From: a bacterium
GTDB taxonomy: Bacteria; UBP6; JAFGXH01
DNA length: 37,239 nt
Direction: 5' to 3'
Assembly: GCA_027064085.1 (NCBI GenBank)
Contig: JAMOQH010000117.1
Location: forward strand, 1 to 37,239
Below are positions 16,961 to 20,266 of this stretch, one piece after another. The notes below the pieces were generated by a model, which worked only from the letters and a program-made list of their open reading frames with translations, was not told the DNA's origin and ran no database searches. The translations under genes were made by a program, and so were the position numbers. Positions within the stretch are counted from its first letter, which is position 1. Each line of letters starts with the position of its first letter.

Positions 16961-18034
16961 ATGGGCTTTTGGGATATTTTCAAAAAAAAGGAAAAACAAA
17001 AACAAAAAATAAAAAAAACTCCATCTTTACCTACAACTAAAAACAAAAAAGCTAAAGAATCAGATAATTCAACCGATAAAGAACTAATAATTAATGATAG
17101 CTTACTTGAAGAACTTGTATATAAATGGGAAGGTGGAGATGAAATTATTGACTCTTTAGTTAAAGAGGCAAGTAATCAAACAGAGGCTAATGTTAAGTTT
17201 ATTGAATATCTTGTTAATTTGATTGATAGTGAAAAACTTGAAATACCTATGTTGCCTGATATTGTAATGAAAATTATAAATTTGTCTGAAAACCCAGATA
17301 CTGAAATTGCCAAGTATGTTGAACTTATTAAATCAGATCAAGCTATTGCCTTAAAGGTTATAAAATTAGCTAATTCTACAATGTATAAAGGGATTAGAGA
17401 TGTAAATGATTTAAATTTAGCAATAAGTAGAATCGGAATAAATGAGTTAAAAAATTTAGTATTAATGCTTTCTTTGCAAAGTAAGATTTTTAAAAATAAA
17501 GAATTTAAAGAATTAATTGAAGAAATATGGAAAACTTCTTTGCTAACATCAATTTTGTCTTCAAAACTAGCTTCTTATTATAGTTTAAATGCTTCAAATG
17601 CATATACCATTGCATTAACACATGATGTTGGAGAGATAATAGTATTTAATTCTATTAAAGGATATGAACAGTTTTATAAAAGAAAATACAAGGTTGATGC
17701 TTATTTTATAAAGAGAATTGCAAAGTCATATCATCAAGAAATTTCTGCTTTTACATTAGCTCACTGGAATTTTTCAAAAGAGCAAATTGATATCGTTAGA
17801 AACCATCATACTCCACCAATGGATAATTCTAATGACTACCATAAATTATTGTTTATAGCATATCAAACATCAGTGATTTTACTTAATTTTAAATTCAATA
17901 AAGATAATATTTATAATTTCCCTTATGAGTTTTTAATTAAGTTTTCAAAGCTCCCTTTAAGTGAAGATGCTTTTTATTTACTATTAAAAGATAGTTTAAA
18001 GGAATTTAATGACTTATCTTTAATAATTTCTTGA
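16961..18034 (+). CDS. HDOD-domain signalling protein
   Basis: 357 residues from ATG 16961. The upstream in-frame ATG at 16949 is within ATGGAG, which serves as the ribosome binding site of the chosen start. The first 50 residues are a lysine-rich linker (KKKEKQKQKIKKTPS). From about residue 85 an HDOD domain follows: IPMLPDIVMKIINLSENPD, ALKVIKLANSTMYKG, AISRIGINELKNLVL and ALTHDVGEIIVFN. HDOD is an HD-related domain without the full metal-binding set; such proteins relay signals in motility, biofilm or cell-cycle control. No receiver or GGDEF/EAL domain is attached. Confidence 0.85.
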   Translation: MGFWDIFKKKEKQKQKIKKTPSLPTTKNKKAKESDNSTDKELIINDSLLEELVYKWEGGDEIIDSLVKEASNQTEANVKFIEYLVNLIDSEKLEIPMLPDIVMKIINLSENPDTEIAKYVELIKSDQAIALKVIKLANSTMYKGIRDVNDLNLAISRIGINELKNLVLMLSLQSKIFKNKEFKELIEEIWKTSLLTSILSSKLASYYSLNASNAYTIALTHDVGEIIVFNSIKGYEQFYKRKYKVDAYFIKRIAKSYHQEISAFTLAHWNFSKEQIDIVRNHHTPPMDNSNDYHKLLFIAYQTSVILLNFKFNKDNIYNFPYEFLIKFSKLPLSEDAFYLLLKDSLKEFNDLSLIIS

Positions 18035-18085
18035 CATATAATCTAAATTTTGAAAGAATATAACGAACTTTTTGATAGGTAAAAC

Positions 18086-19147
18086 ATGAAAATAACATTT
18101 TTAACAACTTTGTTTCTGTTTTTTGCGATAGGCTTAACATCTTCTCTTATGGCAAATACAAATATAAATGATTCTATTAAGAATTTAAAAAAAGATTATT
18201 CTTCTAAGCAAGTAGTAAATGATTTTAATAAAAATGAAATACTTTTAGCTAGAAGAAGTGGTGGCAGGAGTGGCTCAAGAGGGTTTTCAAGTAGGAGGTC
18301 TTCAAGTCGTAAAAGTTATGGTGGTTCTCGTAGCCGTAGCCGTAGTGGAAGTAGCTATGGTTCAAGAAGTAGAGGAAGAAGTGGAAATAATTTTATTTAT
18401 GTTAGTGGCGGTGGTCATCGCAGTGGCTATTATGGTAGCAGAAGTCGTGGCGGTGTTTCATGGATAGGTGTATTAATATTTTTATTGATTATTGGGCTTA
18501 TAGTTTTCTTTGTTATAAAAAATAGAAGAAATAGTGGAGGGGGATATTCTGAAGGATATGCCGTGCCAAGTGAGGAATTCAATACGCTAAAGCTTCAATT
18601 TGCCCTTTATGCAACTGCAGATGATTTTGAAAAAGAGGTTAAAAACCTTGCTAAAGAATTGGATTATGATAGTGAACAAGATCTAAAAACTCTTGTTAAT
18701 GAAACGAGTATGTTGTTAGTTCAAAATCAAGATTATATTAAATATGCTTTTGTTAAACAAGGTAAAGCGACTAAAAATATTGATGTTGCTGAAAGAAATT
18801 TTGATAGTTTTATAAATGAAGAAACTGCTAAGTTTAGCCAAATAACATTTCAAAATAGAAGTGGAAAAGTCAGGGATAGGGATTTAAGTGATGGAAATAA
18901 GCCTGATTTTATGGAAGTAGATGAGTATTTCATTATAAGTTTGGTTGTATCTTATGCAAATACTAAAATAAAACTTAAAGATGATAATTATTCTTGGGAT
19001 GAATATAGTGAACTTTTAAGAAATGTTGGAGCTATTCCTTCAAATAATATTGTTGCTGCTGAAATTATATGGTCTCCTGATGCAGATGATGATATTTTAA
19101 CTGAAGATGACATTATTACTCATTATCCATACATGATTCAATTATAG
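18086..19147 (+). CDS. DUF1517 membrane protein with Arg/Ser/Gly-rich segment
   Basis: 353 residues. Signal peptide (MKITFLTTLFLFFAIGLTSSLMA), about 30 charged residues, then NEILLARRSGGRSGSRGFSSRR opening a strongly basic Arg/Ser/Gly/Tyr tract to about residue 125, one membrane helix (WIGVLIFLLIIGLIVFFVI), and a soluble domain from about 165. That domain ends NNIVAAEIIWSPDADDDILTE and THYPYMIQL, matching DUF1517 (known from cyanobacteria and chloroplasts), whose members end in a similar WxP...L.EDE...YP pattern. Function of DUF1517 is unknown. ATG follows TAGGT. The next gene begins 1 base after the stop and repeats the N-terminal module. Confidence 0.85.
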   Translation: MKITFLTTLFLFFAIGLTSSLMANTNINDSIKNLKKDYSSKQVVNDFNKNEILLARRSGGRSGSRGFSSRRSSSRKSYGGSRSRSRSGSSYGSRSRGRSGNNFIYVSGGGHRSGYYGSRSRGGVSWIGVLIFLLIIGLIVFFVIKNRRNSGGGYSEGYAVPSEEFNTLKLQFALYATADDFEKEVKNLAKELDYDSEQDLKTLVNETSMLLVQNQDYIKYAFVKQGKATKNIDVAERNFDSFINEETAKFSQITFQNRSGKVRDRDLSDGNKPDFMEVDEYFIISLVVSYANTKIKLKDDNYSWDEYSELLRNVGAIPSNNIVAAEIIWSPDADDDILTEDDIITHYPYMIQL

Positions 19148-19148
19148 G

Positions 19149-19583
19149 ATGAATATGAAATCTTTTTTTATTGTATTAATATTTTTTATTTCATTTTCTT
19201 TATTTGGCAATAAAGGAAATAGTGATAATGTATCAAACAAGAATTTAATAAACTCCGTTTTAAATCAAAAGCAACACACAAACAAAGTTGCTAAAGAAAA
19301 TTATAATTCTGAAATTTTATTGGCTAGGAGAAGTGGTGGGCGTAGTGGTGGTCGAAGCTTTTCTAGCAGGAGATCATCAAGTCGAAGTAGTGGATATGGT
19401 GGCACAAGAAGGTCTTCTTCAAGCAGAGGATACTCAAGAGGTAGAAGCGGAGGTGGATTCTTCTTTTTTGGAGGAAGTATTCAATCTCTTGTTATCTTTT
19501 TGATAATTATGGGTATTATTTACTATATTAGAAATAGAAATAGAAACGACAACGATGACGATGATTTTAGGGATAGATTCTAA
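19149..19583 (+). CDS. Short paralogue of the DUF1517 protein lacking the DUF1517 domain
   Basis: 144 residues: signal peptide (MKSFFIVLIFFISFSLFG), a charged spacer, then NSEILLARRSGGRSGGRSFSSR and a basic Ser/Gly tract, one membrane helix (SIQSLVIFLIIMGIIYYI), and an acidic tail NRNRNDNDDDDFRDRF. The ILLARRSGGRSG-R-FSSRRSSSR stretch is shared with the neighbour upstream, so this looks like duplication of its N-terminal half. The basic tract with acidic tail could interact in cis or trans. ATG 19155 (second codon pair, after AGGATGA) is an equally good start. Its stop overlaps the next ATG by one base. Confidence 0.75.
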   Translation: MNMKSFFIVLIFFISFSLFGNKGNSDNVSNKNLINSVLNQKQHTNKVAKENYNSEILLARRSGGRSGGRSFSSRRSSSRSSGYGGTRRSSSSRGYSRGRSGGGFFFFGGSIQSLVIFLIIMGIIYYIRNRNRNDNDDDDFRDRF

Positions 19584-20002
19584 TGCTATGTCATATTTGT
19601 AATAAAAAATTAGAAAAGACTACTAAAGGAAATGTAGATCTTTATCTTTGTCCAAGTTGTGAGGGTATTGCTGTTAAAGATAAAGATTTAAAAAATATTA
19701 TATTAATGACAAAAAAGGTTATAAGAAAGGATAGTTCTGCTCCTCCAATTAAAATTGATGTAATGAAATATTCAAAACAAAAAGTTCCTTTATCTAAATG
19801 TCCAAATTGTAGATATAATTTATATGTAATTGAAAGTAAAGGTTTAGAGTTGGATTATTGTTTAAATTGTAAAACATTTTGGTTTGATAAAGGAGAGCTT
19901 TCATCTTTTATTGAAAGATATAAAAATGGTAAAGCAATTATTTTAGAATCTTCAGAATATACTGATGATTCTGTCATAAATCTTATTTTTTCATTGATTT
20001 AA
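19583..20002 (+). CDS. Double TFIIB-type zinc-ribbon protein
   Basis: 139 residues with two zinc ribbons: CHICNKKLEKTTKGNVDLYLCPSC at residues 3-25 and CPNCRYNLYVIESKGLELDYCLNC at about 73-97. The second is followed by KTFWFDKGELSSFI, the WFDxGEL signature of bacterial zf-TFIIB proteins. Such proteins are cytoplasmic and of unknown function. It starts at TAATG, where the previous gene's stop and this start share a base, so the product is made together with the DUF1517-like pair. A promoter and tRNA genes follow. Confidence 0.85.
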   Translation: MLCHICNKKLEKTTKGNVDLYLCPSCEGIAVKDKDLKNIILMTKKVIRKDSSAPPIKIDVMKYSKQKVPLSKCPNCRYNLYVIESKGLELDYCLNCKTFWFDKGELSSFIERYKNGKAIILESSEYTDDSVINLIFSLI

Positions 20003-20041: not shown

Positions 20042-20075
20042 ATTCGAGCTTTAATTTTTTTATTAGAGTATGTAC

Positions 20076-20147
20076 TGGGGCGTGGCCAAGTGGTAAGGCA
20101 CCGGATTTTGATTCCGGCATTCGCAGGTTCAAATCCTGCCGTCCCAG
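20076..20147 (+). tRNA. tRNA-Gln (anticodon TTG), copy 1
   Basis: 72-base cloverleaf. Acceptor TGGGGCG pairs with CGTCCCA (one G-T pair), discriminator G at 20147. Anticodon stem CCGGA/TCCGG encloses TTTTGAT with anticodon TTG, reading CAA and CAG. T arm GCAGG-TTCAAAT-CCTGC is perfect. The CCA end is not encoded. Confidence 0.97.
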
Positions 20148-20160
20148 TTTTTTTTTATGC

Positions 20161-20232
20161 TGGGGCGTGGCCAAGTGGTAAGGCACCGGATTTTGATTCC
20201 GGCATTCGCAGGTTCAAATCCTGCCGTCCCAG
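20161..20232 (+). tRNA. tRNA-Gln (anticodon TTG), copy 2
   Basis: Base-for-base identical to the copy 85 bases upstream over all 72 positions. A 13-base T-rich spacer separates them. A recent tandem duplication or active gene conversion explains the identity. CCA is not encoded. rplY starts 35 bases after this gene. Confidence 0.97.
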
Positions 20233-20266
20233 TTTTTGTTTAGAGTATATTTCTTTGGAGTTGAAC

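Follow-up and report, generated by a model that had tools for sequence, protein, structure and literature searches.

A DUF1517 membrane protein, its domain-less paralogue and a conserved SGG[R/G]xGG motif in a bacterium of the UBP6 lineage

Three closely packed genes, referred to here as P1, P2 and P3, are found on the forward strand of the window, i.e., the whole stretch of DNA that was analysed (37,239 nucleotides; contig JAMOQH010000117.1 of assembly GCA_027064085.1; GTDB lineage Bacteria; UBP6; JAFGXH01). The features of the locus are the following (coordinates are those of the window):

18031..18059, + strand: weak promoter-like sequence TTGACA-17-AAGAAT upstream of P1 (scan; total matches at chance level)
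18086..19147, + strand: P1, DUF1517 membrane protein of the FLAP1/FlpA family, 353 aa (ORF; PF07466, E 1.2e-38)
18086..18154, + strand: hydrophobic, signal-peptide-like N-terminus of P1, MKITFLTTLFLFFAIGLTSSLMA (hydropathy; putative cleavage site)
18248..18457, + strand: Arg/Ser/Gly tract of P1, net charge +16 to +17, no acidic residues (charge count)
18254..18274, + strand: RSGGRSG motif of P1, residues 57-63 (sequence)
18461..18517, + strand: TM helix of P1, residues 126-144 (hydropathy 3.24; helix in the structure model)
18581..19144, + strand: DUF1517 domain of P1, alpha/beta, probably cytoplasmic (Pfam and model; predicted membrane side)
19149..19583, + strand: P2, domain-less paralogue of the N-terminal half of P1, 144 aa (ORF, Pfam search, alignment, codon comparison)
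19329..19349, + strand: RSGGRSG motif of P2, residues 61-67 (sequence)
19476..19529, + strand: TM helix of P2 (hydropathy)
19545..19580, + strand: acidic tail NDNDDDDFRDRF at the C-terminal end of P2 (sequence)
19583..20002, + strand: P3, double Zn_ribbon_TFIIB protein, 139 aa (PF13453, E 3.4e-15; eight invariant Cys)
19589..19660, + strand: zinc ribbon 1 of P3, C3, C6, C23 and C26 (Cys alignment)
19799..19870, + strand: zinc ribbon 2 of P3, C73, C76, C93 and C96 (Cys alignment)

A single base separates the end of P1 (19147) from the start of P2 (19149), and the stop codon TAA of P2 (19581-19583) has one base, 19583, in common with the ATG of P3. Both this start/stop overlap and the coordinates and packing of the DUF1517, shortened-paralogue and zinc-ribbon genes had been described in a first-pass annotation and hold on inspection of the ORFs; the arrangement suggests co-translation. 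Promoter and terminator scans around the trio gave matches at chance level only. Downstream of P3 lie two tRNA-Gln genes and the gene encoding ribosomal L25; the former are a tandem tRNA-Gln(TTG) pair of near-identical sequences (20075-20233) located between P3 and the L25 gene.

The DUF1517 family (PF07466) includes Arabidopsis FLAP1 (At1g54520) and Synechocystis FlpA. Residues 166-353 of P1 match positions 3-184 of the 184-position profile (133.5 bits against a curated cut-off of 23.3), the C-terminal DUF1517 core being conserved, and the domain is preceded by an exported N-terminus, an SGG[R/G]xGG motif and a single TM helix, in agreement with membership in the FLAP1/FlpA family. The Tim44-like profile (PF04280) was found by the Pfam search in neither P1 nor P2. 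A structure model of the DUF1517 domain (pLDDT 77, pTM 0.70) had no match with E below 1 in the PDB when searched with Foldseek (best second-look Z 3.1, 3n08), and no solved structure for DUF1517 was retrieved by sequence search.

P2 aligns with the N-terminal half of P1 with a score of 214, against a maximum of 89 among 500 shuffles, thus their kinship is no by-product of composition, and the earlier description of two paralogous proteins with a common sequence and an Arg/Ser/Gly-rich tract is sustained. Both contain EILLARRSGGRSG and FSSRRSSSR, begin with a signal-peptide-like segment and have a single TM helix past the tract. The DUF1517 domain, as had also been noticed, is present only in P1: PF07466 is not matched by P2, which displays no Pfam domain at all, and no DUF1517 relic was found downstream of it. 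P2 is a partial paralogue and not a DUF1517 protein. Weak matches to Pfam, NCBIfam and PHROG families (SA1362, phrog_5281 and others), located mostly on the TM helix, were ignored, and no P2 relatives were detected in viral contigs. The acidic tail reported at its C-terminus is present as well. Concerning the tract, which had been placed right after a possible cleavage site and before a membrane helix, a TM helix does come next, while immediate vicinity to the cleavage site is only one of two possibilities; in P1 and P2 the motif is found about 30 residues past the first hydrophobic segment.

P3 contains two PF13453 stretches with paired CxxC (55.6 bits against a cut-off of 22), and all eight Cys are invariant in three orthologues, which bears out the double TFIIB-type zinc ribbon proposed for this protein. 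Neither a signal peptide nor a TM helix is apparent from its sequence, and P3 is probably a cytoplasmic protein that merely shares the transcript.

The first-pass annotation had regarded the trio as a functional set, and had itself held that a lack of conserved adjacency beyond the genus would speak against it. Within the available genomes no such conservation was observed. In a phylum sample of about 28 genomes, in which the sister genera are represented by G001 (MAG JAFGXH01) and G002 (MAG DYRY01), DUF1517 was detected in the three genomes of the window's family, the others not being above the cut-off. G001 encodes three DUF1517 genes and G002 one, with different neighbours each time, and in both assemblies the P3 orthologue is found on a contig separate from those of DUF1517, in other surroundings. 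The sister-genome P3 orthologue, at 45% identity and with the eight Cys retained, precedes a 242-aa gene and follows a gene for a 150-aa single-TM protein that belongs to no Pfam family and had no match in the genome of the window. P2 was not found in G001 or G002, assemblies that are 93% and 82% complete, respectively, two of the G001 DUF1517 genes being near contig ends. Furthermore, no P3-like ribbon gene was detected near about 40 DUF1517 loci (flanks mostly of 1.5 to 5 kb). A conserved system of three genes was rejected, given that DUF1517 and P3 are unlinked and P2 was not found in the sister genera; as far as visible, the P1-P2-P3 adjacency is a feature of one genome. The MAG DYRY01 (L058, DYRY01000052.1) is labelled Anaeromyxobacter dehalogenans, yet both its DUF1517 gene and the genome itself cluster with the low-GC lineage of the window; the label looks wrong.

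The RSGGRSG motif, noticed at first in P1 and P2, is not confined to these two proteins. It is family-wide: among the 37 DUF1517 proteins whose N-terminus is intact, 36 have SGG[R/G]xGG or a close form just past the signal peptide or propeptide, a set drawn from the window's lineage and Deinococcota in which most members are Thermus relatives and hence not independent. The DUF1517 protein of the cyanobacterium Crinalium also has the motif, as AYAASSGGRSGGGSF; its gene (L067 3446-4549) is carried on the mobilizable plasmid pCRI9333.01, beside an integrase. The motif lies outside the Pfam DUF1517 domain and, to judge from these proteins, is an N-terminal hallmark of the family. When the 3.65 Mb of the window's genome were scanned with a DNA pattern encoding R-[ST]-G-G-R-x-G, five matches were obtained, versus one for the reversed pattern used as a control. 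All five follow signal peptides, those of P1, P2, a Tim44-like protein and two proteins without an assigned family; the last three are the following:

L025 6214-7014: Tim44-like protein with the motif RSGGRSGGRGF (pattern match past the signal peptide)
L024 5639-6496: exported single-TM protein of 273-285 aa with RSGGRSGSRGF, flanked by mutL and the gene of an exported VIT-VWA protein; its C-terminal domain has no assigned family
L085 1288-1809, minus strand: Asn/Arg-rich secreted protein of 173 aa with ARRTGGRSGSRSGF past the signal peptide, no Pfam family

In G001, the three pattern matches are its three DUF1517 genes. A Deinococcota DUF1517 protein (L117; G063:C261, 555-aa frame) has the motif and linker twice, with two copies of W[AV]KRSGGSFGG[TS]SRSS about 150 residues apart, both before the TM helix, which shows that extra copies are tolerated or useful; this pair in one chain parallels, in cis, the arrangement of P1 and P2. 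A literature search for the motif string gave no match.

Since in Thermus, Meiothermus and Crinalium the motif comes after an AxA-like site, and since it is carried by unrelated exported proteins of the window's genome (the Tim44-like protein and the two without an assigned family), RSGGRxGG might represent an export or processing signal recognized by a protease, a translocon factor or a chaperone at the mature N-terminus, unrelated to DUF1517 function as such. This explanation is considered doubtful, as the motif is at least 30 residues inside in P1, P2 and L056 (a full-length DUF1517 protein of a sister genus), the second copy of L117 is about 150 residues further in, and within any one genome it is limited to a few exported proteins, so that it is no general export signal.

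It had also been proposed that the exposed basic segments could bind polyanions or each other. As a general role, binding of polyanions or anionic lipids, with P1, P2 and P3 forming a complex through the tract, appears improbable, even though the tracts of P1 and P2 are strongly basic (+16/+17 and +11/+12, respectively) and devoid of acidic residues, and the acidic tail of P2 could pair with basic segments. The net charge is +6 in L056, -1 in L059, +2 in Thermus, +5 in Crinalium and +18 in L057, so that among DUF1517 proteins it varies from -1 to +18 while the SGG[R/G]xGG motif is constant; this lack of conservation of charge argues against electrostatic binding as a general role and in favor of the motif as the working element. 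In addition, the tail and the tract of P2 are predicted to be on opposite sides of the membrane, and P3 is unlinked from DUF1517 in other genomes.

The codon comparison indicates that P2 is maintained. For the 125 codons that align between P1 and P2, pS is 0.75 (saturated) and pN 0.38, and in the 27-codon core EILLARRSGGRSG...FSSRRSSSR pS is 0.76 and pN 0.12; the core has thus retained its amino acids although its codons drifted, hence P2 is neither recent nor dead, contrary to the possibility of a recent dead duplicate contemplated in the first-pass annotation. The N-terminal half of L056 scores 236 with P2 and 171 with P1, and GGGFFFFGG is common to P2 and L056; as P2 is at least as close as P1 to this protein, the P1/P2 duplication may be older than the genus split. 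That P2 is a functionless, decaying truncated duplicate would be in line with its occurrence without the domain in only one of the genomes compared, but is unlikely, as its frame is open, its motif, signal peptide and TM helix are kept though synonymous sites are saturated, and its motif core is preserved with the codons changed.

Based on this evidence, it is tentatively proposed, at somewhat less than even confidence, that P1 is a FLAP1/FlpA-type protein, that P2 is a maintained tag-plus-anchor paralogue acting with or against P1 via the same periplasmic partner, and that P3 is independent of both. The N-terminus of P1 would be exported, carrying RSGGRxGG on a flexible Ser/Gly-rich linker, and one helix would span the inner membrane. 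With signal peptide, motif, linker, TM helix and domain following one another in this sequence, the motif would be outside and the DUF1517 domain on the cytoplasmic side, a topology predicted from hydropathy. By homology with FLAP1/FlpA, P1 may modulate the balance of ions or protons at the inner membrane. P2 would be an old tandem paralogue that lost DUF1517 or never had it, and in which selection has preserved the anchor and linker together with the motif and the export signal. Located in the same membrane, with the outside part of P1 and no inside domain, it could share, recruit or compete for the motif partner; most likely it would work with or against P1 by exposing an additional motif to the periplasmic partner of P1. 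P3 would be a cytoplasmic zinc-ribbon protein with a separate life, placed behind P2 in the window's lineage. A broader and unlikely reading is that RSGGRxGGxxF constitutes a previously undescribed mobile periplasmic tag through which DUF1517 proteins, Tim44-like proteins and further exported proteins dock on one common envelope partner, P2 being a stand-alone version of tag plus anchor that would compete for this docking or organise it.

The noteworthy part of the locus is the conserved motif and not the trio, the zinc-ribbon gene being behind P2 by local accident. FLAP1 and FlpA, for which no partners have been reported, control proton balance (PMC9174948), and the exported SGG[R/G]xGG motif draws attention to a part outside the Pfam domain. 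The motif is conserved among the DUF1517 proteins analysed (the window's lineage, Deinococcota and one cyanobacterium) and is also found on Tim44-like proteins, and P2, a natural construct of the motif part without the domain, offers a direct way in for partner capture.

Compared with known systems, P3 resembles other Zn_ribbon_TFIIB proteins (PF13453) in its two ribbons with all eight Cys, whereas its place behind P2 is its own, an unrelated single-TM protein coming before the orthologues. Tim44-like bacterial membrane proteins (PF04280) have, like P1, a signal peptide, an Arg/Gly motif, a Ser/Gly linker and a TM helix followed by the domain, the motif being RSGGRSGGRGF in the window's genome and RPGGGHSF or RAGGGESY in some proteins from other phyla, which also contain zinc ribbons. 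However, the Tim44-like domain is not detectably related to DUF1517, and the idea that both are one fold was rejected as no profile match was obtained (hhalign probability 0.3%). Two Tim44-like proteins (L069 and L073) show Gly-rich N-termini past the signal peptide and zinc ribbons in cis, L069 also containing a TerB domain.

In the literature CemA/PxcA (PF03040) has been linked to FLAP1. In contrast to FLAP1 and FlpA, which act in photosynthetic membranes with CemA-family neighbours, P1 belongs to a genome with no CemA/PxcA match above the cut-off and to an organism not known as a phototroph, thus the FLAP1 role may not carry over. FLAP1 and FlpA are DUF1517 proteins that control H+ translocation across the thylakoid and plasma membranes (PMC9174948), and in both, as in P1, the DUF1517 domain comes after a single TM helix; the Crinalium protein shares with P1 the complete layout of signal peptide, SGGRSGG, linker and TM helix. 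What sets P1 apart from FLAP1 and FlpA is the domain-less paralogue that adjoins it.
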